NCBI GenBank assembly: GCA_000471045.1
Contig: KI301992.1
Coordinates: 688,606-752,605, forward strand
DNA length: 64,000 bases
Direction of reading: 5' to 3'
Origin: an actinobacterium LLX17
Lineage (GTDB): Bacteria > Actinomycetota > Actinomycetes > Propionibacteriales > Nocardioidaceae
Shown here: positions 3,084 to 63,359 of the stretch, in pieces
Numbering within the stretch: the first letter of the stretch is position 1
Layout: every line of letters starts with the position of its first letter
Translations under genes and position numbers: made by a program
Notes under the pieces: model-generated
What the model saw: the letters and a program-made list of their open reading frames with translations, nothing else
What the model was told of the DNA's origin: nothing
Databases searched by the model: none

Positions 3084-3899
3084 TCAGCCGATGGTGACGG
3101 TGACCTCGGGCGTGGCGCGGTCGGTGCCGATGAGCAGCATGCGGAACTGCCGGGTGCCGGTGCGCGAGGTGTAGACCTGCGTCTCGAAGGTGTCGCCGGC
3201 GCGCACCGGTGTGGTGACCGGGAAGTTGTCCCAGGGGGTGTCGCCCTCCTTGACCTGCACCTGCAGCTCGGCACCCTCGCCGGCACCCGGGAACGTGCCG
3301 GTGAGCGCGAACCGCTCACCCGGGGCCACCCGGTCCTTGGGCGTCGTGAGGACCGGCTGGGGCTCCGCGTCGTCCTGTGGAGGTGCCGGCGTGGGAGACG
3401 GTGTGCTCGACTTCGTGGGTTCCGGTGTGGGGCTGGCGCTGAGCGGGGGGAGCGCGGCGTCGTTGAGGCCCGTGGCGCTCATGGCCGTCATGACGCCGAA
3501 CCCCAGCACACCACCGATGACCGCTCCGATGATCGTCATGGTGATGGCCGTGGAGATGGCCCCGGACTTGAGCGCACCCCGGTCGGCGGGCAGGTCGGAG
3601 TCGTCGAGGGGCACAGCCGCCAGTCCCGCGCTGGGACGTGCGGAGGCACCGACCGCAGCGCCCTGGTGCGACTCCACGGCCCGCACGGCGTCCTGCACGG
3701 TGCGCAGGCCGTCGACCGTCTCGTCGGACAGGTACGTGTCGTAGCGGCGGCCCAGCTCCTCGGCCAGCTCGACCGTGAGCAGCGAGTCGATGCCGACGTC
3801 CTTGAGAAACGTCTCGGGGCCGATCTCGGCCGGGTCGGCGTGCGTCAGCTGCACCACGAGGTCGACCACCGTCGACTGGACTTCTCCCCGGGACGGCAT
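3084..3899 (-). CDS. Membrane-anchored acyl carrier domain protein with extracellular Ig-like domain
   Basis: 271 aa with an unusual order of parts. Residues 1-80 are a phosphopantetheine-binding carrier domain (FLKDVGIDSLLTVELAEELG) with attachment serine Ser39 and the following hydrophobic helix. One transmembrane segment spans roughly 113-138 (ISTAITMTIIGAVIGGVLGF). A Pro/Thr/Ser-rich spacer (SPTPEPTKSSTPSPTPAPP) leads to an all-beta, Ig-like C-terminal domain of about 90 residues. This predicts the carrier in the cytoplasm and the Ig-like part outside. The gene is divergent from an alpha/beta hydrolase, 66 bp away, which could act on the carried acyl group. Carrier assignment is good; role unknown. 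Confidence 0.75.
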   Translation of the reverse strand: MPSRGEVQSTVVDLVVQLTHADPAEIGPETFLKDVGIDSLLTVELAEELGRRYDTYLSDETVDGLRTVQDAVRAVESHQGAAVGASARPSAGLAAVPLDDSDLPADRGALKSGAISTAITMTIIGAVIGGVLGFGVMTAMSATGLNDAALPPLSASPTPEPTKSSTPSPTPAPPQDDAEPQPVLTTPKDRVAPGERFALTGTFPGAGEGAELQVQVKEGDTPWDNFPVTTPVRAGDTFETQVYTSRTGTRQFRMLLIGTDRATPEVTVTIG

Positions 3900-48523: not shown

Positions 48524-51500
48524 ATGAGACGCACCCTGCTCGACTGGCGAGCCTGCCTCGTCGCGGCCCTGACGCTGCTGCTGACGGTGTCGACGCTGGC
48601 AGCACCGGCCACCGCCGCCACGCCCGGCATCACCTCGAACGTCCTGCTCAACGGCGAGACGTACGGCGGCACTCCGGTCGTCACCGAAGGTGATGAGCTG
48701 ACGCTGCGCGTGCAGTACGACACCGCGGTCACGCCGGGGTCGACCGTCGTGTTCGAGCTCGGCACGAACGTCACCGTGAGCGAGGTCCCGGTCGCGAACA
48801 CCGCGATCGAGTCGGTCACGCAGGACGGCAACCGGGTGTCGATCACCTTCCGGGACCCGTGGCCGGCCGGAGTGAACCAGGGTGTCTTCGACCTGACCTT
48901 CACGGTGAACAGCGTCGAGACGAGCACGCCCGGCGAGATCCGCTGGACCATCGACGGCGAGCCCAGCTCGGTCAACGTCATCGTGCGCAACAGCGGTGAC
49001 CAGTTCGCCTCCGTGCAGGAGAACTACGCCAAGAGCGCCACGCCGGGCAACCTCGACAGCTTCGTGACCGTCGTGGACGGCCAGGTCCGGCTGCGTCCCG
49101 AGATCGCCGGCCAGGAGATCAGCTACACCCTGCGACTCGACTCACCGGAGGCGCGGACCGATCTGCCCGTCACCGACCAGCTGCCCGACGGTCTGACGTA
49201 CGTCGACGGCTCGTTCGCCGGTCAGCTCACCACATGGGACGCCAACGGCCTCAACCGCACCACGAAGCCGTTCCCGTTCGCGCCCACCGTCACGGGCGAC
49301 TCCTTCGCCAGCACCCTGAGCGTTCCGGGTCCCTCGCAGCTCGCCCTCACCTACCGCGCGACCGTCACCGACATCGCCGCGCTCGAGCAGCAGCTGCAGA
49401 CACGCTACGACCAGCTCGGTGGAGGCACCGGCAACTTCGAGATCCAGCTGCGGAACACCGCGACCTTCGGCACGACCGAGCGGACTGCTTCGGTGCGGCT
49501 GCGCGGTTCCGTGCCCGGCGTCAACATCGGTCAGGCCTTCGGCAAGAACGCCAGCTGGAGCACCCAGAACGTCGTGACCGACGCCGCGGGCAACCTGGTC
49601 CCGCCGGCCGACCTCACCTACACGTTCAAGGCCGATCTACGGCAGTGGACGGGCGCCCCGAACTTCACGCTGAACCGCAACGTCGTCATCAGCGACGTCC
49701 TGCCGAGCCAGGCCGCCTGGAGCACCGACGCGACCGACTTCATCACCGCGAACGGCCTGACCCTCACCGAGGCGTCGACCTGCCCGGCCACCACGGACGC
49801 CTTCGAAGGGGACGAGTTCGTCGGTCAGTACTGCGTGGACGGCCAGCGACTGCTCGTGAACGTGGGGCGCGACAACACGACCAACGCGACCATCGCGGTC
49901 AAGGCGCAGCTCGCCACCGTGGAGGGTCTGACCCAGGCCGGAAGCACGCCCATCGTCGACGCGACGCCGTACCGCTGGCGCAACGTGGCCGACTTCCACT
50001 ACCGGGACGGCAACCCGCACAGCGCGACGCGCGACGTCACGGTGGTCGTGCTGCCCGACACCAGCGAGGGCATCAACGATCCGAGCGTCTTCCGAAAGAC
50101 CGGCACGCCCCGCGAGACGTCGGTCGCGCCGGGCGAGACGGTCACGGTCGACTACGACTTCGTCGTCGCGGCCGGCAAGGGCATCGACGTGACGACCAGT
50201 CGCATCGTCGACCACGTCGACACCGAGGTCTTCGACCTGAACGATCCGGAGGCGGTGGCCGTCTCCGGCAGCTACGCCGGGGTCGCGCTGACCTCTTCGA
50301 GCTTCGAGCTGAGCGTCGACGACGACGGGAACCTCGTCATCGACCTGAGCGACGCCGGCCGGGCCACGGTCCTCGCGCTGGGTGCGGACCGGGAGTACCG
50401 GGTCGACATCGCGCTGACGACGCGCCCCTTCGAGGGCAAGGAGACGCTCTCGATCACCAACACGGCGACCCTCTTCGGCGGGGACGACACCCCGCTGTAC
50501 TGGTCGGGCACCGAGACGGAGGCGACGTCGTTCGGCGACGAGGCCGAGGTCCGCAAGCGCGTCTTCGACCGCGCGTCCGAGGAGTGGGTCGAGACCGTCA
50601 AGGCCGAGACCGACGGGTCGGGCCAGCTCGTGCAGGACACCTACGTCTACCGGATCGAGTTCATCCCGCACGGCAGCTATGACGACGTCGTGGTCGTCCC
50701 GGTCGTCGACGTGCTGCCCGAGGCAGCGGACTTCCTCGGCTTCGTCTCCGAGGCGGACGCCGCGACGGGTGCCAACCCGACCACCGGACCCGTCGACGTG
50801 GGCGGCAACCTCGAGGCCACCTACGACGCGACGTCCGGCACCGTGCGGATCGTCCAGAAGGACGGCACCCGGCTCGACGCCGGCACCCCGATCGCGGCCT
50901 ACGTGGCCGTGCAGATCACCGACGGTTCGGCCCCTGTCGTCAACCGGATCGGTGACACGTTCGCCGAGATCGTGCCGCTGACCTCTGTCTCCGTGGGGGA
51001 CTTCGTGTGGGTCGACATCGACCGCGACGGCCGCCAGGGCGCCGGGGAGCCGGGGACCCCGGGCGTCGTGCTCGAGGTCGTTGGTCCCGACGGCGAGCCG
51101 GTCACCGACGTGCTCGGCAACCCGGTCGGGCCCGTCACGACCGGACCGGACGGTGGATACACGTTCGACCGTCTGCCGGCGCTGACCGGCGACCAGACCT
51201 ACACGGTCCGGATCGATCGCGATGCGTCCGCCGAGGCCCTTCGGCCCTACGTCCCGACGATCGCCCAGCAGGGCGACCGCGACCTGGACTCCTCCACGTG
51301 GGAGGCGGTGACCGTCCCGGGTGACCTGCACGACGACGGTGACCGTGACCCGACGCTGGACTTCGGGTTCGTGACCAAGACCTACGCGGTCGGCGACCTC
51401 GTGTGGATCGACGCCGACCGTGACGGCCTCCAGGGCGAGGACGAGGCGGTGCTGGCCGGCGTGCTGGTCGAGCTGCTCGACGCCGAGAGCGACGTGGTCG

Positions 51501-51952
51501 CCACCACGACGACCGCCGAGGACGGCCGGTACGTCTTCGACAACCTGCCGGCGGGCACGTACCAGGTGCGCTTCACGCTGACCGACGCACAGAAGGCGAT
51601 CTACGCCTTCACGCAGCGGGACGTGGACGGCGACGACCTCGACTCCGACGCGAACCCCGCGGACGGCATGACGGTCACGATCGTGCTCGACGACACCAAC
51701 ACCGCCCTCACGGGCGACTACGAGCACCGCCAGATCAGCGCGACCCAGGGCATCGACCCGACCTGGGACGCCGGTGTCCTCATCCAGGACGGACCGGTCG
51801 TCGAGCAGCCTGCGACCGATCCGCCGACGGCACAGCCGGAGCGTTCCGTGCTCCCGAGCACCGGAACGGCCCTGCGACTGGGCGTGCTGGCCCTGGCCCT
51901 GGCACTGGTCGGCCTGGGTGTGGTGTTCCTCCGATCGGGACGTCGTCCCTGA
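48524..51952 (+). CDS. LPXTG-anchored surface protein with SdrD B-like domains
   Basis: 1142 aa. A signal peptide (LLDWRACLVAALTLLLTVSTLAAPATAA) is followed by about 800 residues of repeated beta-sandwich domains like those of isopeptide-stabilised adhesins (YTLRLDSPEARTDLPVTDQLPDGLTYVDGSF). Two SdrD B-type calcium-binding domains follow: VGDFVWVDIDRDGRQGAGEPG near 825 and VGDLVWIDADRDGLQGEDEAV near 955. The cell-wall sorting signal is LPSTG about 30 residues from the end, then a hydrophobic stretch and RSGRRP. Sortase would link it to peptidoglycan. Role in adhesion is inferred. Confidence 0.88.
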   Translation: MRRTLLDWRACLVAALTLLLTVSTLAAPATAATPGITSNVLLNGETYGGTPVVTEGDELTLRVQYDTAVTPGSTVVFELGTNVTVSEVPVANTAIESVTQDGNRVSITFRDPWPAGVNQGVFDLTFTVNSVETSTPGEIRWTIDGEPSSVNVIVRNSGDQFASVQENYAKSATPGNLDSFVTVVDGQVRLRPEIAGQEISYTLRLDSPEARTDLPVTDQLPDGLTYVDGSFAGQLTTWDANGLNRTTKPFPFAPTVTGDSFASTLSVPGPSQLALTYRATVTDIAALEQQLQTRYDQLGGGTGNFEIQLRNTATFGTTERTASVRLRGSVPGVNIGQAFGKNASWSTQNVVTDAAGNLVPPADLTYTFKADLRQWTGAPNFTLNRNVVISDVLPSQAAWSTDATDFITANGLTLTEASTCPATTDAFEGDEFVGQYCVDGQRLLVNVGRDNTTNATIAVKAQLATVEGLTQAGSTPIVDATPYRWRNVADFHYRDGNPHSATRDVTVVVLPDTSEGINDPSVFRKTGTPRETSVAPGETVTVDYDFVVAAGKGIDVTTSRIVDHVDTEVFDLNDPEAVAVSGSYAGVALTSSSFELSVDDDGNLVIDLSDAGRATVLALGADREYRVDIALTTRPFEGKETLSITNTATLFGGDDTPLYWSGTETEATSFGDEAEVRKRVFDRASEEWVETVKAETDGSGQLVQDTYVYRIEFIPHGSYDDVVVVPVVDVLPEAADFLGFVSEADAATGANPTTGPVDVGGNLEATYDATSGTVRIVQKDGTRLDAGTPIAAYVAVQITDGSAPVVNRIGDTFAEIVPLTSVSVGDFVWVDIDRDGRQGAGEPGTPGVVLEVVGPDGEPVTDVLGNPVGPVTTGPDGGYTFDRLPALTGDQTYTVRIDRDASAEALRPYVPTIAQQGDRDLDSSTWEAVTVPGDLHDDGDRDPTLDFGFVTKTYAVGDLVWIDADRDGLQGEDEAVLAGVLVELLDAESDVVATTTTAEDGRYVFDNLPAGTYQVRFTLTDAQKAIYAFTQRDVDGDDLDSDANPADGMTVTIVLDDTNTALTGDYEHRQISATQGIDPTWDAGVLIQDGPVVEQPATDPPTAQPERSVLPSTGTALRLGVLALALALVGLGVVFLRSGRRP

Positions 51953-52514: not shown

Positions 52515-53654
52515 GTGGAGGTCTCGACCGCGCTGCTCCTCGAGCTGGGCATGCTGCTGCTGGTGCTGACGGTCCTCGGCTCGGCGGCACGACGGGTCGG
52601 ACTCTCACCGATCCCGCTCTACCTGGTGGCGGGGTTGTTCCTCGGCCCCGAGGGCATTGCCCCGGTGCCGGCCACGGAGGAGTTCGTCGACACCGGCGCG
52701 TCGATCGGCCTCGTCCTGCTGCTGCTCGTGCTGGGCCTGGAGTTCACGGTCGACGAGTTCGCGGTCAGCCTGAAGCGCCACCGTGCGTCAGCGCTCGTCG
52801 ACATCGTGCTCAACGCGACGCCCGGTGCGCTCGCCGGGTGGCTTCTGGGGTTCGACGCCGTCGGCATCGTCGCCCTGGCCGGCGCGACCTACATCTCGTC
52901 GTCGGGCATCGTCGCGCGCGTCCTCGGCGACCTGGGCAGACTGGGCAATCGCGAGACGCCCGCCGTGCTCTCGGTCCTCGTGCTCGAGGACTTCGCGATG
53001 GCCGCCTTTCTCCCCGTGCTGGCCGTCCTGGCGGCCGGCGGCACGTGGTGGCAGGCCGTCATCGGCGCCGCGATCGCGGTCGGAGCGCTCACCGGCGCGT
53101 TGCTGGCCTCGCGCCGCTACGGGCACCGGGTGGGACAGCTGGTCGCTCACCCGGACCCGGAGCAGCTGCTGCTGCGGGTGCTCGGACTGGCCCTGGTCGT
53201 CGCGGCCCTCGCCGAGCTGGTGCACGCCTCCGCAGCGGTGGGCGCGTTCCTCGTGGGTCTCACCCTCACCGGTCCCGTGGCCGATCGCGCCCGCGCGGTG
53301 CTCTCTCCGTTGCGCGATCTCTTCGCCGCCGTGTTCTTCCTGGCGATCGGCCTGTCGGTCGACCCGAGTGACCTGCTGCCGATGCTCCCGGCTGCCGTCG
53401 CGCTGGCCGCGGTCACGGCCGCGACCAAGATCGCGACAGGGTGGTTCGCGGCAGGTCGCGACGGGGCTGGCGCCCCTGGACGGTGGCGCGCTGGCACGGT
53501 GCTGACGGCGCGCGGCGAGTTCTCCCTGGTGATCATCGGCCTCGTCGGCACCCAGCAGGCCGAGCTGGGCAACCTCGTCACGGCCTACGTGCTGGTGCTC
53601 GCCGTGGTCGGGCCGGTGCTGACCCGAGCCCCCCTCCCGCTCGTCAGACAGTGA
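52515..53654 (+). CDS. Monovalent cation:proton antiporter (CPA2, KhtU/KefB-like)
   Basis: 379 aa from GTG 52515. Eleven to twelve membrane helices; the hairpins GLSPIPLYLVAGLFLGPEG and GLVLLLLVLGLEFTVDEF and the discontinuous-helix motif GATYISSSGIVARVLGDLG are characteristic of CPA2. The late FFLAIGLSVDPSDLLPMLP and LTARGEFSLVIIGL segments match KefB/KhtU. There is no cytoplasmic RCK domain; that part is the separate gene upstream. It should exchange K+ or Na+ for H+. Overlaps the convergent pncA end by 11 bases. Confidence 0.9.
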   Translation: MEVSTALLLELGMLLLVLTVLGSAARRVGLSPIPLYLVAGLFLGPEGIAPVPATEEFVDTGASIGLVLLLLVLGLEFTVDEFAVSLKRHRASALVDIVLNATPGALAGWLLGFDAVGIVALAGATYISSSGIVARVLGDLGRLGNRETPAVLSVLVLEDFAMAAFLPVLAVLAAGGTWWQAVIGAAIAVGALTGALLASRRYGHRVGQLVAHPDPEQLLLRVLGLALVVAALAELVHASAAVGAFLVGLTLTGPVADRARAVLSPLRDLFAAVFFLAIGLSVDPSDLLPMLPAAVALAAVTAATKIATGWFAAGRDGAGAPGRWRAGTVLTARGEFSLVIIGLVGTQQAELGNLVTAYVLVLAVVGPVLTRAPLPLVRQ

Positions 53655-54216
53655 GCTCGACGCCGGCGGTCTCCATCTCGACCAGGGCTGCCTCGCTGGA
53701 CTCGTGGGCCACCCCGGCGTGCAGGCCGTCGAGCAGCCGGACGGAGAAACCGGCCGACACGGCGTCGAGTGCAGTGGCCCGGACGCAGTAGTCGGTGGCG
53801 ATGCCGACGACGTCGACGGCCTCGACACCGCGATCGCGCAACAGGTCGGCGAGGAGCTCGCCACTGTCGGTGGTTCCCTCGAAGGCGGAGTAGGCCGGCA
53901 CGCCTTGGCCCTTGAGGACCTCGACGTCGATGAGGTCGGTCAACAGCTCCGGGGCGTACTCGGCGCCCTCCGTGCCCGCCACACAGTGCACGGGCCACGT
54001 GGTCACGTAGTCCGGCTCGCCGTGCGCGAAGTGGCCGCCGTTGTCGTTGTCGCCGTCGTGCCAGTCGCGGGAGGCGATGACGAGGTCGTACCGATTTGCC
54101 TGCTCTCGCAGCAGGATGCTGATGGCGGCAGCAACGTCGTGCCCACCGTCGACCCCGAGGGCGCCGCCCTCGCAGAAGTCGTTCTGGACGTCGACGACGA
54201 TCAGCGCGCTCTTCAT
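53644..54216 (-). CDS. pncA: Nicotinamidase
   Basis: 190 aa from ATG 54214-54216 (MKSALIVVDVQNDFCEGG). Catalytic triad: Asp in VDVQNDF, Lys in the EVLKGQG segment and Cys in GIATDYCVRATALDA. Metal ligands are in SRDWHDGDNDNGGHF. It converts nicotinamide to nicotinate and is the enzyme that activates pyrazinamide in mycobacteria. With pncB in the same window it forms the first steps of NAD salvage. Confidence 0.94.
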   Translation of the reverse strand: MKSALIVVDVQNDFCEGGALGVDGGHDVAAAISILLREQANRYDLVIASRDWHDGDNDNGGHFAHGEPDYVTTWPVHCVAGTEGAEYAPELLTDLIDVEVLKGQGVPAYSAFEGTTDSGELLADLLRDRGVEAVDVVGIATDYCVRATALDAVSAGFSVRLLDGLHAGVAHESSEAALVEMETAGVELTV

Positions 54217-54309
54217 GGAGATCAGCGTAGACGTCACGCGCAGGCTGTAAATTCCCTGTGCGAGAGGGAATCTCGACGCTCCTGAGTTTCTCGCCAGGGT
54301 CATCTGCCG

Positions 54310-54328
54310 TTAAGGTAAGCCGACCCTT
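54310..54328. promoter_or_regulatory. DtxR/IdeR-like iron box
   Basis: TTAAGGTAAGCCGACCCTT matches the TTAGGTTAGGCTAACCTAA consensus at about 12 of 19 positions and keeps the partial dyad. It lies 16 bases before the start of an iron transporter operon, so repression by iron-loaded DtxR/IdeR is likely. Confidence 0.65.
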
Positions 54329-54344
54329 ATGACGTGAGGACACC

Positions 54345-55364
54345 ATGAACACCCGCTTGCTGACCGCTCTCGCCGCCTCGATCCTCGCCGCCGGCACGCT
54401 CGCCGCGTGCGGCAGCGGCAGTGACGAGGAGGACGGACCGTTCATCACGGTCTACAACGCCCAGCACAAGCCGCTGCTGGAGGAGATGGCGCCGATCTTC
54501 GAGGAGGAGACAGGCATCGAGGTCCGCCTCCGCAACGGCAAGGACTTCGAGCTGGGCAACCAGCTCGTCGCCGAGGGCGAGGGGTCGCCCGCCGACGTCT
54601 TCCTCACCGAGAACTCCCCGGCGATGTCGCTGGTCGAGCAGGAGGGCCTGTTCGCCCCGCTCGACGAGGAGACCCTCGCCCTGATCCCGGAGCAGAACCG
54701 CCCGGCCAGCGGCATGTGGACCGGCTGGGCCGCCCGCTCGACCGTCCTCATGTACAACACCGAGGACATCACGCCCGAGGAGCTGCCGACCAGCATCCTC
54801 GAGCTGGCCGAGCCGCAGTGGAAGGGCCGCGTCTCGTTCTCGCCGACCGGCGCCGACTTCCAGGCCATCGTGTCGGCGGTCCTGCAGCTCGAGGGCGAGG
54901 ACGCCACCCGCGCCTGGCTCGAGGGGCTGGCCGAGAACGGTGAGGTCTACGAGGGCAACAACATCGTCATGCAGTCGGTCAACGACGGTGAGGTCGAGAC
55001 CGGCATCGCGTACCACTACTACTGGTACCGCGACCAGAAGGAGTCGGGCGAGAACAGCGACAGCACCGAGCTGTACTTCTTCGGCGCCCAGGACCCCGGC
55101 GCGTTCGTCAGCATCTCCGGTGCCGGCGTGCTGAAGTCGAGCGACAAGCGGGAGGACGCGCAGAAGTTCGTCCGGTTCCTCGCCGACAAGACCGGCCAGC
55201 AGGCGCTCGCCGACAGCTACGCGCTGGAGTACCCGCTGGATGGTGAGACCCCGCTCGACCCGGCGGTGAAGCCGTTCAGCGAGCTGCAGCCGCCGACGGT
55301 CGACGTCACCGAGCTGAACGGTCCGCTGGTCATCGAGATGATGCAGGACGTCGGGCTGCTCTGA
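54345..55364 (+). CDS. Ferric iron ABC transporter substrate-binding lipoprotein (FbpA-like)
   Basis: 339 aa. Lipoprotein signal with lipobox LAAC (Cys22). The mature part begins ITVYNAQHKPLLEEMAPIFEEETGIEVRLRNGKDFELGNQLVAEG, a pattern of FbpA-type Fe3+ binding proteins; later tyrosines in EVYEGNNIV and IAYHYYWYRDQ are the usual iron ligands. It captures ferric iron outside the membrane for the permease encoded next. Its stop overlaps the permease ATG (TGATG). Confidence 0.92.
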   Translation: MNTRLLTALAASILAAGTLAACGSGSDEEDGPFITVYNAQHKPLLEEMAPIFEEETGIEVRLRNGKDFELGNQLVAEGEGSPADVFLTENSPAMSLVEQEGLFAPLDEETLALIPEQNRPASGMWTGWAARSTVLMYNTEDITPEELPTSILELAEPQWKGRVSFSPTGADFQAIVSAVLQLEGEDATRAWLEGLAENGEVYEGNNIVMQSVNDGEVETGIAYHYYWYRDQKESGENSDSTELYFFGAQDPGAFVSISGAGVLKSSDKREDAQKFVRFLADKTGQQALADSYALEYPLDGETPLDPAVKPFSELQPPTVDVTELNGPLVIEMMQDVGLL

Positions 55365-56926
55365 TGGCCGCCGTGCTCGCCCCACCCCGGCCTGTGCGCC
55401 GGGTCGGCGGGACGGGCGGGACTCCCGTGGCGCTGCTGCTGCTTGGCACCGTCATCGCCGTGCTCGCCCTCGTCCCGCTGCTGCACGTGGTGCAGTACGC
55501 CGTGACGGTCGATCCTGCGGTGGCCCGCGAGCAGCTGTTCCGGCCGCGCATGGCGATGCTGCTGCGCAACACCATCGGGCTGACCATGGCCAGCGTGGCG
55601 CTGGGCATCGTGATCTCGGTGGCGTGCGCCTGGCTCGTGGTGCGCACCGATCTCCCCGGGCGCAAGCTCTGGCACGTCCTGCTCACCGCCCCGCTGGCGG
55701 TGCCGGCCTTCGTCAACGGCGTCGGGTGGATCTCGGTGACGCGCGCGGTCGAGGGCTTCGCCGGGGCGACGCTGGTCGTCACGCTCTCGTACTTCCCCTT
55801 CATCTACCTCCCTGTCTGCGCCGCCCTCCGAGGGCTCGACCCGGTGCACGAGGAGATCGCCGCGACCGCCGGGCTGGGACGCGTGCAGACCTTCACCCGG
55901 GTGGTGCTGCCGCAGCTGCGCCCGGCCATCCTGGGGGGATCTCTCCTGGTGGCGCTGCACATGTTCAGCGAGTTCGGAGCGCTGAAGACCCTGCGCTTCC
56001 CGACCTTCACGACCGCGATCTACGACCAGTTCAACTCCACGTTCAACGGTCCTGCCGCGCACCTGTCGGCCAGCGTCCTGGTGCTGCTGTGCCTGGCGGT
56101 GCTGATGCTCGAGCTGCGCCTGCGTGGCCGCCGCCGGTACGCGCGCACCAGCAGCGGCACGCCTCGCGGCCAGCGGCGCAGCCAGCTCGGCCGCCTGCGG
56201 CTCCCCGCGCTGCTGGTGCCCGGCACGGTCGTCGCCCTGGCGCTCGGCGTGCCGGGGTGGAGCCTCGTGCGCTGGATGGTGGTCGGCTCCTCGACCGGCA
56301 CGGGTCTTGACGGGCTGCTGCCCACAGCGGTCACGACCGTGGCCTACGCCGGCCTCGGAGCGCTCGTCGCCGTGATGCTCGCCCTTCCCGTCGCGGTGCT
56401 CGCCGTACGCCACGCCTCGCTGTCGAGCACGGTGGTCGAGCGCAGCACGTACACGGCCAACGCGCTGCCGGGCATCGTGATCGCGCTCGCGCTCGTGACG
56501 GTCACCCTGGCGCTGGCGCCCGGGCTCTACCAGACCGCGATCGTGCTGGTGGCGGCCTACTTGATCATGTTCCTGTCGCGGGCCGTCGTCTCGGTGCGCG
56601 CCTCGCTCGAGCAGGCGCCGCCGGTGCTGGAGCAGGTCGCGAAGTCGCTGGGCTCGGGCAACCTGGCCACCACGCTGCGGGTGACCGTGCCGATCGTGCT
56701 GCCCGGCATCGGCGCGGGTGCCGCCCTGGTGTTCATCGCCATCTGCACCGAGCTCACCGCCACACTGCTCCTCGCGCCGACCGGCACCGAGACCCTGGCC
56801 ACCGAGTTCTGGGCCCTCTCCGGCGGGCTGGAGTACGGGGCGGCCGCGCCGTTCGCGCTCCTGATGGTGCTGCTGTCGATGCCCGCGGTCTACCTGCTCA
56901 GCCGGTCGTCCGGGAGGACCACATGA
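55364..56926 (+). CDS. Ferric iron ABC transporter permease (FbpB-like)
   Basis: 520 aa, about twelve membrane helices in two BinPDT-permease halves. Each half has an EAA-type loop: EIAATAGLGRVQTFTRVVLPQLRPAI in the first and LEQVAKSLGSGNLATTLRVTVPIVLPGI in the second. The fused double permease is characteristic of the FbpB/SfuB group. It starts inside the stop of the binding protein and overlaps the ATPase start (ATGA), so the transporter is a single coupled operon. Confidence 0.93.
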   Translation: MAAVLAPPRPVRRVGGTGGTPVALLLLGTVIAVLALVPLLHVVQYAVTVDPAVAREQLFRPRMAMLLRNTIGLTMASVALGIVISVACAWLVVRTDLPGRKLWHVLLTAPLAVPAFVNGVGWISVTRAVEGFAGATLVVTLSYFPFIYLPVCAALRGLDPVHEEIAATAGLGRVQTFTRVVLPQLRPAILGGSLLVALHMFSEFGALKTLRFPTFTTAIYDQFNSTFNGPAAHLSASVLVLLCLAVLMLELRLRGRRRYARTSSGTPRGQRRSQLGRLRLPALLVPGTVVALALGVPGWSLVRWMVVGSSTGTGLDGLLPTAVTTVAYAGLGALVAVMLALPVAVLAVRHASLSSTVVERSTYTANALPGIVIALALVTVTLALAPGLYQTAIVLVAAYLIMFLSRAVVSVRASLEQAPPVLEQVAKSLGSGNLATTLRVTVPIVLPGIGAGAALVFIAICTELTATLLLAPTGTETLATEFWALSGGLEYGAAAPFALLMVLLSMPAVYLLSRSSGRTT

Positions 56927-57972
56927 GCGACCAGACGTGTGTGCTCGACGTCCGCAAGCTGACCCGCAGCTTCGGCCCCGTGTGGGCGCTCGACGGCGTC
57001 GACCTGACGGTGGCCGACGGCCAGGTGGTCGCGGTGCTCGGACCGTCCGGCTGCGGCAAGACCACGCTGCTGCGCATCATCGCCGGGTTCCTGCCGGGTG
57101 ACAGCGGCAGCGTCGACCTCGCCGGTCGCACGGTGTTCGCCGATGGCCGTTCCCGCGTGCCCACCAAGGCGCGCAACGTCGGCTACGTCCCGCAGGAGGG
57201 TGCGCTCTTCCCGCACCTCGACGTCGCCGCCAACATCACCTTCGGTCTGCCGCGCGCCGAGCGCCGGCGTGCCGACATCGGCGGGCTGCTCGAGATCCTC
57301 GACCTCGACCCCTCGCTGGCGACCCGAGCGCCCCACGAGCTCTCCGGTGGGCAGCAGCAGCGGGTCGCCGTGGCGCGGGCCCTCGCGCGCAAGCCGTCGC
57401 TCCTGCTGCTCGACGAGCCCTTCTCGTCCCTCGACGCCTCGTTGCGCGAGAGCACCGGACGGGCCGTGGTGCAGGCCGTCCGTGCGACGGGGGCCGCGGC
57501 GCTGCTGGTGACCCACGACCAGGACGAGGCCCTGTCGCTGGCCGACGTGGTCTCGGTGATGTCGGCCGGTCGCGTGCTGCAGACCGCCCCGCCCTTGGAG
57601 GTCTACACCCGTCCGGCCACGCCGTTCGTGGCGACCTTCGTGGGCAGTGGCACGGTCCTCAAGGCGACCGTCGCCGCCGGCATGGCGACCACCGCGATCG
57701 GCACCTTCCCCGTCAGTGCCGCCGTGACGCCGCGTGACGGCGAGGCTCCGGTCTTCGTCCGGCCTGAACAGGTCGTCATCGATCCCGACGGCCCGGTGCG
57801 CGGCACCATCACCGGGCTCGACTTCTTCGGCCACGAGGCGTGCGTCCACGTCGCTGTTCCGGGCCACGACGACGTGCTGTCGCGCGTCCGCGGCGACCAG
57901 CTGCCGGCGACCGGCGACGAGGTGCGGCTGTCGGTGCGCGGGGCCGCCACGGCGTTCGGGGACGAGCGATGA
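56923..57972 (+). CDS. Ferric iron ABC transporter ATP-binding protein (FbpC-like)
   Basis: 349 aa. Walker A GPSGCGKTT near residue 40, signature LSGGQQQRVAVARALARKPS, Walker B LLLLDEPFSSLD, and H-loop THDQDEAL. A C-terminal TOBE-like regulatory domain (about 250-349) includes VFVRPEQVVIDPDGPVRGTI. It powers iron import. Its stop overlaps the next ATG (ATGA), tying a biosynthetic fusion protein to the transporter. Confidence 0.94.
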   Translation: MSDQTCVLDVRKLTRSFGPVWALDGVDLTVADGQVVAVLGPSGCGKTTLLRIIAGFLPGDSGSVDLAGRTVFADGRSRVPTKARNVGYVPQEGALFPHLDVAANITFGLPRAERRRADIGGLLEILDLDPSLATRAPHELSGGQQQRVAVARALARKPSLLLLDEPFSSLDASLRESTGRAVVQAVRATGAAALLVTHDQDEALSLADVVSVMSAGRVLQTAPPLEVYTRPATPFVATFVGSGTVLKATVAAGMATTAIGTFPVSAAVTPRDGEAPVFVRPEQVVIDPDGPVRGTITGLDFFGHEACVHVAVPGHDDVLSRVRGDQLPATGDEVRLSVRGAATAFGDER

Positions 57973-60470
57973 CGATCCTCAACTCACCGCTGGTCGGCCC
58001 CGACGGGCAGGTCATCGGCGACCTCGCGACCGGGGGAGACCTGCCGGCTCTCGTCGACCACCAGCGCACCCTGACCTACCGCGATCTCGCGCGTCGAGTG
58101 GAGGAACGTGCCGCCCAGTGGCGGGGCTCGCGGCGCCTGATCATGCTCTCGGGTCACAACAGCATCGACTTCGTCGTGAACTACCTCGCTGCTCTCGAGG
58201 CCGAGTGCCCCGTGCTGGTCGTGAACGGGTGTGCCCGCGACGCCCTGACCGCCGCGTGGGATCCCGACATCGTCGTGGACGCCGAGACCGATCGTGTCGA
58301 GGTGCGCCGGGAGGTCTCCGGTCGCGACCTCCATCCCGACCTCGCCCTGCTGCTCTCCACGTCCGGGTCCACGGGCTCGCCGAAGCTGGTGCGACTCAGC
58401 CGTCAGAACCTGCGCAGCAACGCCGCGAGCATCGTCGAGTACCTGCGGCTCACCGCGGACGACTGCGGCATGACCAGCCTGCCGCTGCACTACTGCTACG
58501 GCCTGTCGATCCTGCACAGTCACCTCCTCGCGGGCGCCAGCATCGCGATCACCGATGCCTCCGTGGTCGACGTGGACTTCTGGCGGCTGGCGGAGGACGC
58601 CGGTGTCACGGGGCTGGCCGGTGTGCCGCACACGTTCGACCTGCTCGACCGCACCGGCTTCGCCGAGCGCGACCTCCCGCGACTGCGCTACCTGACCCAG
58701 GCCGGCGGTCGGCTCGAGGCCGACCGGGTGCGTGCCTGGCACGACCTGGGCGTCCGTCGCGGTTGGGACTTCTTCGTCATGTACGGCCAGACCGAGGCGA
58801 CCGCGCGCATGGCGTGGCTGCCGCCGGACCTCGCCGACCTGCACCCCACGTCCATCGGCCGCGCGGTGCCCGGCGGCTCCCTGCACCTGGCCCCATTGGA
58901 CGACGCAGTCGAAGGTGTCGAGGACGGCGTCGGCGAGCTCGTGTACACCGGTGCCAACGTGATGATGGGCTACGCCGAGTCCCCGGCTGACCTCGCCCTG
59001 CCTCCGATGGAGCCGGTCCTGCACACCGGCGACCTCGCCCGCGAGCTCGGCGACGGGCTGTTCGAGGTGGTCGGTCGGCTCAAGCGCATCACCAAGGTCT
59101 TCGGCCTGCGGATCAACCTCGACGACGTCGAGAAGCACCTCGCCGCCGCCGACCTGCCCGCGCGCGTGGTCGGCACCGACGACGCGCTCGTCGTCTTCGT
59201 GACCTCGCGGCGGCACCGCGACCGCGCCCGGGAGGTGGCGGCCACGGCCTGCGGTCTGCCGCTCTGGGTCGTGCACGTCGAGGCGGCGCGTCGAATGCCA
59301 CTCACGGCCAACGGCAAGCCCGACTACGCCGCCCTCTCGCAGCTTGCCGGTCGAACCCCGGCCCAGCGCGACAAGCGCCCCCGCGTCGTCGACCCCGAGG
59401 ACGTCTGCCAGCTGTACGCCCGCATCCTCAACCGGCCCGACGCCACGGTGGCCGACAGCTTCGTGGGCCTCGGTGCCGACTCGCTGTCGTACGTCGAGAT
59501 GTCGGTGCGCCTGGGGGAGCGGATCGACCCGCTGCCCCATGACTGGCACACGCGATCCATCGTCTCGCTGGCCTCCGGGGGTCAGCGTCAGCGCTGGGGA
59601 CGCGCGCTCGACACCAACGTGCTGCTGCGCGCACTCGCGATCGTCGCCATCCTCGGCTCGCACAGCGAGGCCTGGGTCCTCCTCGGCGGGGCCCACCTGT
59701 TGCTTGCCCTGGCCGGCTACAGCTTCGCTCGATTCCACCTCGCCGCCGGCAGGCGTCCGCTCTGGCGGCGGATCGGGTGGGCGCTCACCGCGATCGCCGT
59801 TCCCGCCTGCCTCTGGCTGGCCGGGGTGGCCTCGACCACAGGGGAGTACACCTGGCGCACGGTGGTCTTCCTCAACTGGACGCGCGGCAGCACGGCGTGG
59901 GACGACCAGTGGCGGTTCTGGTTCCTCGAGGCACTCGTGTGGACGCTCGTCGCGCTCGCCGCGGCGCTGTCCGTCCGTCGGGTCCGAGCGATCGAGGCGC
60001 GGCACCCTTTCGTGGTGGCCGCTGTCGTGCTGCTCGCCACCCTCGTGGTGCGCTGGACGCTGGTCGGCGTCACCGCCGACGAGGAGCAGAAGTACGCCCT
60101 CGCCAACGTGCTGTGGGTCTTCGCCCTCGGGTGGCTGATGGCGCGGTCGACATCGCTCCAGCAGCGAGTCCTGACGTCGGTCGTCATCGGCGCCTCGTTC
60201 GTCGGCTTCTTCGCCGACCCCCAGCGTGAGTGGTTCATCATCGTCGGCCTCTTCGTCGTGCTGTGGGTCCCGCAGGTGCGGGTGCCGCGCCTGGTCGCCA
60301 CGGTGATCGGCTCGGTGTCGGCGGCCTCCCTCGCGATCTACGTGACCCAGTGGCAGGTCTACCCGCATCTCGAGGTCGACCACCCCTACCTCGCCGTCCT
60401 GGCCTCCATCGCTGTCGGTATCGCCTACCACCGCTCGAGCAAGCCCGTGATGGCCCGGCTCAGGTCCTGA
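57969..60470 (+). CDS. Adenylation domain / carrier protein / membrane acyltransferase-3 fusion
   Basis: 833 aa in three parts. Residues 1-480 are an AMP-forming ligase (SGSTGSPKLVRLSRQN; YGQTEATARMAW; HTGDLARELGDGLFEVVGRLKRITKVFG; catalytic Lys in LTANGKPDY). Residues about 480-540 are a carrier domain with attachment Ser in VGLGADSLSYVEMSVRL. The rest is a ten-helix acyltransferase-3 (OafA-like) domain beginning LRALAIVAILGSHSEAWVLLGG, whose His fits the catalytic position. It could activate an acid, load it onto its own carrier and pass it to a membrane or exported acceptor. Coupled to the iron transporter by a 4-base overlap. Confidence 0.85.
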   Translation: MTILNSPLVGPDGQVIGDLATGGDLPALVDHQRTLTYRDLARRVEERAAQWRGSRRLIMLSGHNSIDFVVNYLAALEAECPVLVVNGCARDALTAAWDPDIVVDAETDRVEVRREVSGRDLHPDLALLLSTSGSTGSPKLVRLSRQNLRSNAASIVEYLRLTADDCGMTSLPLHYCYGLSILHSHLLAGASIAITDASVVDVDFWRLAEDAGVTGLAGVPHTFDLLDRTGFAERDLPRLRYLTQAGGRLEADRVRAWHDLGVRRGWDFFVMYGQTEATARMAWLPPDLADLHPTSIGRAVPGGSLHLAPLDDAVEGVEDGVGELVYTGANVMMGYAESPADLALPPMEPVLHTGDLARELGDGLFEVVGRLKRITKVFGLRINLDDVEKHLAAADLPARVVGTDDALVVFVTSRRHRDRAREVAATACGLPLWVVHVEAARRMPLTANGKPDYAALSQLAGRTPAQRDKRPRVVDPEDVCQLYARILNRPDATVADSFVGLGADSLSYVEMSVRLGERIDPLPHDWHTRSIVSLASGGQRQRWGRALDTNVLLRALAIVAILGSHSEAWVLLGGAHLLLALAGYSFARFHLAAGRRPLWRRIGWALTAIAVPACLWLAGVASTTGEYTWRTVVFLNWTRGSTAWDDQWRFWFLEALVWTLVALAAALSVRRVRAIEARHPFVVAAVVLLATLVVRWTLVGVTADEEQKYALANVLWVFALGWLMARSTSLQQRVLTSVVIGASFVGFFADPQREWFIIVGLFVVLWVPQVRVPRLVATVIGSVSAASLAIYVTQWQVYPHLEVDHPYLAVLASIAVGIAYHRSSKPVMARLRS

Positions 60471-60477
60471 GGTTCCG

Positions 60478-60483
60478 TAGGGT
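60478..60483 (+). promoter_or_regulatory. -10 element TAGGGT of the spermidine-synthase-like pseudogene
   Basis: TAGGGT ends 7 bases before ATG 60491, the leaderless arrangement seen elsewhere in the window. Confidence 0.4.
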
Positions 60484-60490
60484 CCCGACC

Positions 60491-60906
60491 ATGCCTCCCA
60501 CACCGTTCGCCGAGCTCGACTGGGCCGAGACACCGTGGGGGACGCTCGTCCTGCGACGACGCTTCGATCCCGCCACGCAGCGTGAGGTCGACGAGGTGAA
60601 GCTCGGTGACGACTACCTGATGTCGAGCCAGTTCACGGTCTCGGAGGTGGAGCTGGCTCGACTGGGCATGGCGGCAGCCGTCGGCCAAGAGCTGCGGGTG
60701 CTCGTCGGTGGCCTGGGCCTCGGCTACCCCCCGCCGGTGTCTTCGGGCTGTGGTCCGACGAGCCGCCGGACCCCGCGATGGTCGAGCTGATGCGCGGGTC
60801 CTTCGCCGAGGCCGAGGCGAATGTCGTCAGCTTCGACAACCCGCTCACGGGCGGAGTCTCGAGCTGCACGGTGTACCTGGCGACGGGACCGCGCCTCGCG
60901 GAGTAG
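60491..60906 (+). pseudogene. Spermidine-synthase-like methyltransferase, internal deletion
   Basis: The first 79 codons (ELDWAETPWGTLVLRRRFDP...EVKLGDDYLMSSQFT...LRVLVGGLGLGY) read as the N-terminus of a spermidine-synthase-like SAM protein, ending at the SAM-binding glycines. After a run of C's at 60727-60732, another frame continues with that family's C-terminus: AGVFGLWSDEPPDPAMVELM, VVSFDNPLTGGVSSCTVYLATG, stop at 60904-60906. Roughly 100 or more middle residues are missing and the frame changes, so the gene is not functional. Confidence 0.8.
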
Positions 60907-60944
60907 CCCCTCCTCGCGAACGGGCAGCCCGCCCACACTCCGAC

Positions 60945-60950
60945 TACGTT
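60945..60950 (+). promoter_or_regulatory. -10 element TACGTT of predicted leaderless uvrA-like gene
   Basis: TACGTT ends 6 bases before GTG 60957. Confidence 0.5.
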
Positions 60951-60956
60951 GGCGAG

Positions 60957-63359
60957 GTGCCTGAACCTGAGCAGACCGATGCCCTTCCCACCGGATCGTC
61001 GGGGTGGATCCGGGTCCGCGGTGCGCGGGAGCACAACCTGCAGGACGTCAGCGTCGACCTGCCGCGCGACTGCCTGGTCGCCTTCACCGGCATGTCCGGC
61101 TCCGGCAAGTCGTCCTTGGCCTTCGGCACGGTGTTCGCCGAGTCGCAGCGTCGCTACTTCGAGTCGGTCGCGCCGTACGCCCGGCGCCTGTTGTCGCAGG
61201 TCGGGGCACCCGCGATCGACACGATCGAGGGGCTTCCGCCGGCCGTCGCCCTTCAGCAGGCCCGGGGGGCTGCCAGCTCGCGATCGACGCTCGGCACCCT
61301 GAGCTCGCTGTCGGACGTGCTGCGCCTCCTCTACAGCCGCGCCGGCACCTATCCCGCAGACGCCGAGCACCTCCCGGCATCGGCCTTCTCGCCCAACACC
61401 GCCACGGGCGCCTGCCCCACCTGCCACGGCAGCGGCGTCGCGCGCAGCACCAGTGAGGCGCTGCTGGTGCCCGACCCCACGCTGTCGATCGACGAGGGCG
61501 CCATCGGCGTGTGGGCCACGAAGGCGTGGGTCGGCCTGAACGTCCGGCGCATGGTGACCAAGCTGGGCATCGACATCCACGCGCCGTGGCACACGCTGGC
61601 GCAGGCCGACCGTGACTGGCTGCTGTTCACCGAGGAGGAGCCGCGGATGCTCCTGCAGGGCAACAAGCAGGGTGAGGCGAGCGCGTACCACGGGCACTGG
61701 TCGTCGGCCGAGAAGTACCTCATGCGCAACCTCGCGAAGACCCAGTCGCCCACCCAGCGCGAGAAGCTCGAGGCGTTCCTCGCCGAAGGTCCGTGTCCGG
61801 CCTGCCACGGCAAGCGGCTGCGACCGGCAGCGCTGGCGGTGACGTTCGCGGGCGTCGACATCGCTGAGATGGCCGCCATGCCGTTGTCGCAGGTCTGCCA
61901 GCTGCTCGACACCGGGCTCGAGGAGCAGGCCCGTGGCACCGACCGTCACGGTGCGGCCGCTGCCACGGCAGCGCGATCGCTGGTCAAGGACTTCGGCGCC
62001 CGGGTCGAGGCGATCATCGGGCTTGGTCTGGGCTACCTCTCGATGGACCGTTCCAGCACGGCGCTCTCGGCCGGCGAGCTGCAGCGTGTGCGTCTGGCGG
62101 GCCAGCTGCGGGCGGGTTTGTTCGGCGTCCTCTACGTGTTGGACGAGCCGTCGGCCGGCCTGCACCCGGCCGACTCCGAGGCGCTGTACACCGCGCTGCG
62201 GGAGCTGGTGGCCAGCGGCAACTCCCTGTTCGTGGTCGAGCACGATCTCTCGATCGCGCGCAATGCCGACTGGGTCGTCGACGTCGGTCCCGGGGCCGGC
62301 GTGCTCGGCGGACGCATCGTGCACAGCGGACCGCCTGACGGCCTCGCCGACGTCACCGAGTCCGCGACGGCCGAGTTCATGTTCGGCCGCGACGAGGCGC
62401 CGACCCTTCAAGCGCGGGAACCGGATGGTTGGCGAGAGCTGGACCACCTGTCGGTCAACAACCTGCAGGACGTCAGCGTCCGTCTGCCGGTCGGCGTGCT
62501 CACGGCCATCACCGGTGTCTCGGGTGCGGGCAAGTCCTCGCTGCTGACCGCGATCGTCGAGCGGCTGGAGGACGAGCTGCGCGTCATCTCGATCGACCAG
62601 AAGCCCATCGGGCGCTCCCCGCGGTCGAACCTCGCCACCTACACGGGACTGTTCGACGCGGTGCGGCGCCTCTTCGCCGCCACGCCGGAGGCGAAGGAGC
62701 GCGGCTGGGCGGCGGGCCGGTTCTCGTTCAACGTCGACGCGGGTCGTTGCCCGACCTGCGAGGGGGAGGGCTTCATCGCGATCGAGCTCGTCTTCCTTCC
62801 CACCAGCTATTCGACGTGTCCCACCTGCCAGGGCTCGCGGTACAACCCCGAGACGCTCGAGGTCCGCTACCACGGCCGGGACATCGGTGAGGTGCTGGCG
62901 ATGACCACGCAGGAGGCCGCGGAGTTCTTCGCCGACGTCCCGGGCGTGCACCGCTCGCTCACCACGCTGCTGGACGTGGGGCTCGGGTATCTGACGCTCG
63001 GTCAGCCGGCGACCGAGCTGTCGGGCGGCGAGGCTCAGCGCATCAAGCTGGCCACCGAGCTGCAGCGTCCCCGCCGTGACGGCACCGTGTTCGTGCTCGA
63101 CGAGCCGACCGGGGGACTGCATCCCGTCAATGTGCGCGACCTCGTGCGGGTGCTGGGCCGGCTCGTCGATTCCGGTGCCACGGTGGTCACGGTCGAGCAC
63201 GACATGCAGGTCGTCGCGGCCGCCGACTGGGTCATCGAGCTGGGCCCCGGCGGCGGTGATCGCGGCGGCACCGTCATCGCGGCAGCCACCCCGTCCGACC
63301 TTCTGGCTCACGAGGACAGCATCACTGCGCCCTACCTACGGCGGTCGCTCGAACGCTGA
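60957..63359 (+). CDS. UvrA-like ATP-binding cassette protein (short, UvrA2/drug-resistance type)
   Basis: 800 aa from GTG 60957. Two ABC modules: Walker A GMSGSGKSS near 50 with GTVFAESQRRYFESVAPYARR after it, and GVSGAGKSS near 525. Signatures are LSAGELQRVRLAGQL and LSGGEAQRIKLATELQ; zinc motifs are CPTCHGSG, CPACHGKR and CPTCEGEG...CPTCQGSR. UvrA itself is about 950 aa; this protein is shorter and appears to lack the UvrB-binding insert, as in UvrA2 and antibiotic-resistance UvrA-like proteins. Role in DNA damage or drug tolerance is inferred. Confidence 0.9.
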   Translation: MPEPEQTDALPTGSSGWIRVRGAREHNLQDVSVDLPRDCLVAFTGMSGSGKSSLAFGTVFAESQRRYFESVAPYARRLLSQVGAPAIDTIEGLPPAVALQQARGAASSRSTLGTLSSLSDVLRLLYSRAGTYPADAEHLPASAFSPNTATGACPTCHGSGVARSTSEALLVPDPTLSIDEGAIGVWATKAWVGLNVRRMVTKLGIDIHAPWHTLAQADRDWLLFTEEEPRMLLQGNKQGEASAYHGHWSSAEKYLMRNLAKTQSPTQREKLEAFLAEGPCPACHGKRLRPAALAVTFAGVDIAEMAAMPLSQVCQLLDTGLEEQARGTDRHGAAAATAARSLVKDFGARVEAIIGLGLGYLSMDRSSTALSAGELQRVRLAGQLRAGLFGVLYVLDEPSAGLHPADSEALYTALRELVASGNSLFVVEHDLSIARNADWVVDVGPGAGVLGGRIVHSGPPDGLADVTESATAEFMFGRDEAPTLQAREPDGWRELDHLSVNNLQDVSVRLPVGVLTAITGVSGAGKSSLLTAIVERLEDELRVISIDQKPIGRSPRSNLATYTGLFDAVRRLFAATPEAKERGWAAGRFSFNVDAGRCPTCEGEGFIAIELVFLPTSYSTCPTCQGSRYNPETLEVRYHGRDIGEVLAMTTQEAAEFFADVPGVHRSLTTLLDVGLGYLTLGQPATELSGGEAQRIKLATELQRPRRDGTVFVLDEPTGGLHPVNVRDLVRVLGRLVDSGATVVTVEHDMQVVAAADWVIELGPGGGDRGGTVIAAATPSDLLAHEDSITAPYLRRSLER

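Follow-up and report, generated by a model that had tools for sequence, protein, structure and literature searches.

An iron-boxed ferric importer operon encoding an adenylation-carrier-acyltransferase fusion in actinobacteria

The operon and its iron box

The window analysed here is a 64 kb stretch (positions 688606-752605) of the single-contig 3.0 Mb genome of the actinobacterium LLX17, a member of the Nocardioidaceae. It carries four plus-strand genes spanning 54345-60470, in which the ferric importer genes fbpA, fbpB and fbpC are followed by a gene for a single chain with predicted adenylation, carrier and membrane acyltransferase-3 domains (the fusion). Read directly from the sequence, each junction is an overlapping stop and start (TGATG between fbpA and fbpB, ATGA between fbpB and fbpC, and ATGA between fbpC and the fusion gene), just as listed in an initial annotation of the window. 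That annotation was correct in its observation and understated it: judged from sequence comparisons, the fusion is a widespread partner of Fbp import, usually preceded by an iron box, and an enzyme of unusual design. The features of the operon are as follows.

54311-54329, no strand assigned: DtxR/IdeR/DmdR-like iron box TAAGGTAAGCCGACCCTTA, 14/19 consensus matches, 15 bases before the fbpA start codon
54345-55364, plus strand: fbpA, FbpA-type ferric-iron-binding lipoprotein with Cys22, His41, Glu77, Tyr225 and Tyr226 (phmmer, ligand columns)
55364-56926, plus strand: fbpB, FbpB-type two-domain permease (PF00528, two stretches)
56923-57972, plus strand: fbpC, FbpC-type ATPase with a TOBE domain (PF00005, PF08402)
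57969-60470, plus strand: adenylation-carrier-acyltransferase-3 fusion, 833 residues (Pfam domains and alignments)
58014-59342, plus strand: adenylation (AMP-forming ligase) domain of the fusion, about residues 16-458 (PF00501)
59400-59522, plus strand: carrier domain of the fusion, matched residues 478-518, phosphopantetheine serine S505 (PF00550)
59601-60443, plus strand: membrane acyltransferase-3 domain of the fusion, about residues 545-825, with R554-X10-H565 (R-X10-H in 59/59 aligned fusions; PF01757 in 20/22 members of a smaller alignment, A1)

The assignment of the first three genes to a ferric importer of the Fbp type stands. Compared with solved proteins using phmmer, FbpA gave E-values close to 1e-100 (2.8e-101 for YfuA and 3.1e-100 for SfuA), and its matches to proteins named HitA and FbpA ranged from about 1e-74 to 1e-22. 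Its His, Glu and two Tyr residues are in place at the ferric-ligand positions. FbpA is a close homologue of solved ferric-binding proteins, and Fe(III) binding and import are predicted for it. The importer resembles FbpABC, SfuABC, YfuABC and HitABC in combining a ferric-binding protein that has these ligands with a two-domain permease and a TOBE ATPase. Importers of this type are known as three-gene systems, whereas here a fourth, enzymatic gene appears as a regular actinobacterial partner.

The box ahead of fbpA was scored against a DtxR/IdeR consensus. With 14/19, TAAGGTAAGCCGACCCTTA outscores every other 19-mer of the window on either strand, the next independent site reaching 12, in agreement with the DtxR/IdeR-like box first reported at this position. 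It is clear but imperfect, since the full consensus with up to three mismatches matched nothing. A pattern that combines the box with the consensus and allows at most one mismatch has two sites in the 3.0 Mb genome, namely the operon site (by construction) and one other. The genome also yields a single hit with PF02742, the C-terminal model of the DtxR family (E 2.1e-29). No sigma-70-like promoter was matched within 54200-61000, a negative of little weight for an actinobacterium. In section 8 of PMC12161575, the predicted DmdR1 regulon of S. coelicolor includes no such fusion gene.

The second pattern site (G000:C1:2065843-2065861, locus L139) lies directly ahead of a minus-strand lipoprotein gene whose translation, read by eye, resembles a FecB/FhuD-type siderophore-binding protein. 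Divergent from fbpA is a gene for an isochorismatase-fold hydrolase (53644-54303, minus strand). Its longest reading begins 7 bases from the iron box, and the box could serve that gene too; the gene was weighed as a siderophore gene and then set aside.

The fusion gene and its Fbp partners

Three sets of sequences were used to follow the fusion beyond the window. The named loci, taken as the 80 top-ranking of 581 confirmed relatives in 591 stretches, lean for that reason to close relatives. The other two sets are a family sample of 197 genomes and a phylum sample of 396 genomes, both including the window's own. Matches at E 1e-20 or better occur in 126/197 genomes of the family, many over the ligase part only, and 76 genomes reach E 1e-60; across the phylum 18/396 match at 1e-50, three of them (G385, G400 and G533) over the ligase part only. 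The 80 loci come from Nocardioidaceae (23), Streptomycetaceae (21), Micromonosporaceae (11), Micrococcaceae (7), Nocardiaceae (5), Microbacteriaceae (4), Thermomonosporaceae (4), Jiangellaceae (1) and Mycobacteriaceae (1), with 3 unassigned. The named genera in which the fusion links a membrane acyltransferase with the supply of iron belong to seven actinobacterial orders and include Streptomyces, Micromonospora, Rhodococcus, Arthrobacter and Nocardioides.

The initial annotation had set co-occurrence with fbp genes beforehand as a test of its reading, and the pairing was found both in the neighbourhood and at a distance. Genes for fbp flank the fusion in 58/80 loci, with the layout counts subject to some short flanks, a crude gene caller with crude start codons, and some arrangements placed by hand: 19 fusions follow fbpC as in the window, 27 are divergent from fbpA, 5 lie on the same strand ahead of fbpA, 6 are on the opposite strand and 1 is mixed. 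At the remaining 22 loci fbp is absent from the available flanks, some of which are short. Among the genomes of these unlinked loci, FbpA is encoded elsewhere in all 21 tested (L107 was left out), as a near-class protein in 11 and a far-class protein in 10 (classes defined below). Such co-occurrence in the unlinked state rules out a chance neighbour.

When the predicted neighbours were clustered, the fusion and fbp families ranked first, although one such cluster also took in 7 genes from elsewhere, and no other family was present in more than 8/80 loci. Representatives of seven of these lesser families are housekeeping types unrelated to one another or lack a match: a short-chain dehydrogenase, an acyl-CoA dehydrogenase, a biotin carboxylase, a TetR regulator, a histidine kinase, a FAD-binding protein and one family without a match. 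A larger siderophore cluster around the fusion was therefore ruled out, since nothing besides fbp exceeds 8/80 loci and none of the seven is of siderophore type, the unmatched one aside.

FbpA falls into two classes with a wide E-value gap between them, which we labelled near (E 1e-98 or better and at least 48% identity) and far. In the family sample an FbpA match at E 1e-20 is present in 73/76 genomes with the fusion, the three others (G009, G045 and G052) being 76-82% complete, and in 13/121 genomes without it. The near class is the more telling: 46 of the 47 family genomes that carry it hold the fusion, and in the exception, G169, the contig stops about 126 bases past the fbpC match, where the fusion would begin. 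Across the phylum sample, near-class FbpA is accompanied by the fusion in 6/6 genomes (own genome included), two of them unlinked, and 8 more fusion genomes carry far-class FbpA. The lipoprotein Cys is present in both classes (58/58 rows). His41, Glu and the Tyr-Tyr pair are kept in 22/22 near-class rows; among the 36 far-class rows Glu77 is present in 36 and Tyr225-Tyr226 in 35 (one gap), His41 in only 5, with Asn instead in 24.

In a quickly built tree covering 79 fusion proteins, from which all change counts are minima, FbpA class switches no fewer than 8 times (77 rows carry a label) and the linked or unlinked state at least 10 times. Gene arrangement changes at least 10 times among the linked loci, or 19 times when the unlinked condition is counted as a state. 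The fusion and fbp have been repeatedly separated and rebuilt as a pair.

Iron boxes follow the pair. Counting boxes in relatives at 13/19 or more consensus matches, we found one upstream of fbpA in 55/57 related loci with an FbpA match, and upstream of the fusion in 27/27 divergent pairs, where a single stretch is shared. Where no fbp gene flanks it, the fusion has its own box in 18/22 loci, compared with 7/881 other predicted genes of the same loci, a contrast that is somewhat flattered because many of the controls lie within operons. Of seven more unlinked fusion loci, drawn from the phylum sample, 5/7 have a box, with the site in L153 falling at the estimated start. In two genomes (G204 and G281) the fusion is separated from fbpA, by 775 kb or by lying on another contig, and both genes are boxed in each, with scores of 16 and 16 for the fusion and 17 and 13 for fbpA. 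Because boxes are present at most unlinked loci, the fusion gene usually bears the iron signature even when standing alone. As to the objection, foreseen at the outset, that a separate promoter might drive the fourth gene, a fusion with its own upstream region usually carries an iron box. A chance box at the operon was ruled out, since boxes recur ahead of fbpA or a lone fusion in other lineages. These sequence patterns suggest that the fusion gene would respond to iron.

Domains of the fusion protein

The ligase and carrier parts described in the initial annotation were recovered by Pfam in the 833-residue chain (AMP-binding E 3.5e-40, PP-binding E 7.2e-5). Two alignments were used: A1 comprises the window fusion and 21 relatives (22 members), while A2 comprises 59 fusion proteins, the others being 43-59% identical to that of the window. 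In A2 the ligase motifs S130 T131 S132 G133 T135 G136, Y272 G273, T275 E276, T353 G354 D355, R370 and K450 are present in 59/59, as is the attachment serine S505.

The acid pocket was placed on G178, L179, L182, A217, T243, A245, M271, A279, R280 and K450, a mapping that is approximate. Seven of these ten positions are invariant in A2, L179 is kept in 58/59 and A217 in 56/59, while L182 may be I, V or L. Since the approximate pocket is nearly invariant in 59 homologues, the alignment suggests that the adenylation domain is specific for one conserved acid. That acid is probably not an alpha-amino acid: at pocket position 235, located approximately by reading an alignment to LgrA, all 59 proteins have Gly, whereas amino-acid adenylating domains have Asp. 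Amino-acid activation was accordingly disfavoured, within the limits of that approximate mapping. The invariant R280 hints at a dicarboxylic or citrate-like acid, which we offer as a guess only. Among NCBI models, an exosortase-associated ligase and the general adenylation domain come nearest, each falling well short of its cut-off, and the MbtM model is matched with 75 of 621 bits, likewise far under cut-off.

The membrane part was judged against acyltransferase-3 motifs reported in PMC9833829 and PMC12423673. PF01757 is matched by 20/22 A1 members at E up to 0.1 (best 2.5e-15); the window fusion has no match at that threshold, and a search of its own genome also left it unmatched. Averaged hydropathy gives 8 strong cores between residues 552 and 820, where the initial annotation had counted ten helices. 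The R-X10-H of the first transmembrane helix (TMH1; R554 and H565) and the Gly of TMH2 are each present in 59/59, and the SxxxY of TMH9 in 58/59. The RxxR of TMH3 (columns 595/598) is kept in 47/59, the window protein having Leu at 598. The Asp of DxxR and the Phe of TMH2 are found in 0/59; in PMC12423673 the former is reported as dispensable in OacB and the latter as important in OatA. The sequence relationship to acyltransferase-3 is real but divergent, and because the DxxR Asp and the TMH2 Phe are absent we filed this part as a divergent branch related to acyltransferase-3 and not as a typical member. The earlier description of it as OafA-like fits as far as the membrane domain goes and fails in that there is no SGNH part. 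OafB and OatA (acyltransferase-3, PF01757, TmAT superfamily) share R-X10-H, SxxxY and the TMH2 Gly with the fusion, which differs from them in its own preceding adenylation and carrier domains as well as in the two missing residues.

Other systems are alike in parts. Pls/PosA synthetases (TIGR02353) also combine adenylation, a carrier and a further, membrane-bound C-terminal part in one chain; the C-terminal domain differs, and TIGR02353 does not appear in the top 25 of the 84 models listed for the fusion. The LLX17 genome does encode a Pls/PosA-family one-chain synthetase, a second adenylation-carrier protein (G000:C1:1062320-1066207, L144:1321-5208; TIGR02353 E 2.3e-195). MbtM-MbtL-MbtK resembles the fusion in iron-regulated activation, carrier loading and acyl transfer, but uses separate soluble proteins within a siderophore gene set, and no such set recurs beside the fusion. 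The Dlt system (DltA, DltC, DltB and DltD) follows the same logic of AMP-ligase, carrier and membrane transferase, although as separate proteins, unlike the one-chain fusion, whose acid is probably not an amino acid. DltB is an MBOAT protein of distinct fold according to PMC12423673, while A1 matches five families that include PF01757 (20 of its 22 members) and no MBOAT model.

As for earlier descriptions, the main text of a 2022 review (PMC9558356) makes no mention of 'AMP-binding', 'iron' or 'siderophore', and a 2025 superfamily paper (PMC12423673) none of 'adenylation' or 'acyl carrier'. No title or abstract opening listed in searches of an open-access library named the fusion, which is weak evidence of novelty.

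Proposed mechanism and alternatives

The explanation we favour, tentatively and with confidence a little short of even, is that the Fbp importer and a one-chain acyl-placing enzyme form an iron-starvation system in which the enzyme's product would be a ferric ligand. Under iron shortage, DtxR/IdeR-type repression would be lifted and the four genes made. The adenylation domain would activate one particular carboxylic acid, which we guess to be a common metabolite, and load it onto the phosphopantetheine arm at S505. The loaded arm might then stand in for acyl-CoA, reaching into the acyltransferase-3 pore from the cytosolic side, and R554 and H565 would assist in moving the acyl group to an acceptor located at the membrane or beyond it. 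The product, most likely facing outward or released, would gather Fe(III) for the FbpA lipoprotein.

The steps of this explanation differ in strength. We infer a carrier-held donor, and the simplest reading is that the fusion would supply its own, because a carrier within its chain can present an identical pantetheine arm. PMC9833829 models acetyl-CoA as reaching through an acyltransferase-3 pore. The regulation and partnership seen in conserved sequence suggest that the product serves iron uptake. That it binds iron is a guess, as is our preference for an iron ligand over envelope acylation, which we hold since no partner but a ferric importer is constant. The initial annotation had proposed that iron shortage leads to an acylated glycan or an iron-binding product working with the importer; its coupling to iron is strongly supported by the neighbourhood, the unlinked co-occurrence and the fusion's own boxes, while the proposed product, whether a surface glycan or an iron-binding molecule, is conjectural.

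Besides the bias in the box comparison given above, several results weigh against this explanation. Boxes were missed at four of the 22 unlinked loci (L087, L107 at a contig edge, L112 with 12/19, and L129) and at two of the seven further ones, which fell under 13 (L147 and L152, both 11). In the phylum sample, 4/18 genomes with a fusion match lack an FbpA match (G385, G400, G469 and G533), and 117/378 genomes without the fusion have far-class FbpA, so that far-class FbpA alone is not predictive of the fusion. A tight fit between product and FbpA is disfavoured, because FbpA class has switched 8 times or more. The carrier might not be loaded, as the genome, with three carrier-domain matches, encodes only two AcpS-size phosphopantetheinyl transferases (PF01648) and none of Sfp/PptT type by PF17837, an N-terminal model that itself matched only 3/14 control genomes. 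Finally, according to the review PMC9558356, acyltransferase-3 enzymes acylate mainly sugars, and acyl-CoA rather than acyl carrier protein is supported as their donor.

The main rival is an iron-responsive acylation of the envelope, in which a wall glycan, teichoic acid or lipid would be decorated in a Dlt-like manner and would help through surface charge, permeability or resistance instead of iron binding. The precedent for acyltransferase-3 enzymes is indeed extracytoplasmic sugar acylation (PMC9558356, PMC9833829), and the repeated exchange of FbpA classes fits a product that FbpA need not recognise. Even so, we consider envelope acylation rather unlikely, given that the sole recurrent partner is a ferric importer and that seven of the other neighbour families, each in at most 8/80 loci, include no glycan or teichoic acid enzyme, one of them being without a Pfam match.

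Tailoring is improbable. Here the recipient of the acyl group would be a molecule that exists beforehand, such as a siderophore, the lipoprotein FbpA or something else that the cell exports. The lipoprotein Cys conserved in both FbpA classes would suit such a role, and the activate-load-transfer logic resembles mycobactin lipidation by MbtM-MbtL-MbtK, with the MbtM model matched far below its cut-off. No siderophore gene family recurs nearby, however (genomes beyond these loci were not searched for siderophore genes), and no test pointed to a fatty-acyl pocket. An ordinary ligase-like fusion placed in the operon by chance is very improbable: every part does come from a large known family, but co-occurrence and iron boxes persist across many separate arrangements.

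The fusion system, an acyl-placing enzyme paired with Fbp import, is a candidate, with a real chance, for a new way of getting iron. A stronger version, possible but doubtful, is that it constitutes a separate class of bacterial iron acquisition, in which one membrane chain activates a common organic acid, its own carrier arm instead of acyl-CoA feeds an acyltransferase-3 pore, and the resulting external ferric ligand is emptied by Fbp, with neither a siderophore assembly line nor a dedicated exporter involved. Should the product be an iron ligand, the route would be very compact and would hint at how a cell that has only a bare ferric importer gets ferric iron to it. Donation from the carrier would also be an exception to the acyl-CoA donor view of acyltransferase-3 enzymes set out in PMC9558356.

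Two further genes of the window were recorded in passing. At 3084-3899 on the minus strand, a 271-residue protein has an acyl carrier domain at its N terminus, its remaining 190 or so residues being without a Pfam match at E 1e-5. The plus-strand gene at 48524-51952 encodes a protein of 1142 residues that has an SdrD_B-like domain and may be located at the surface.

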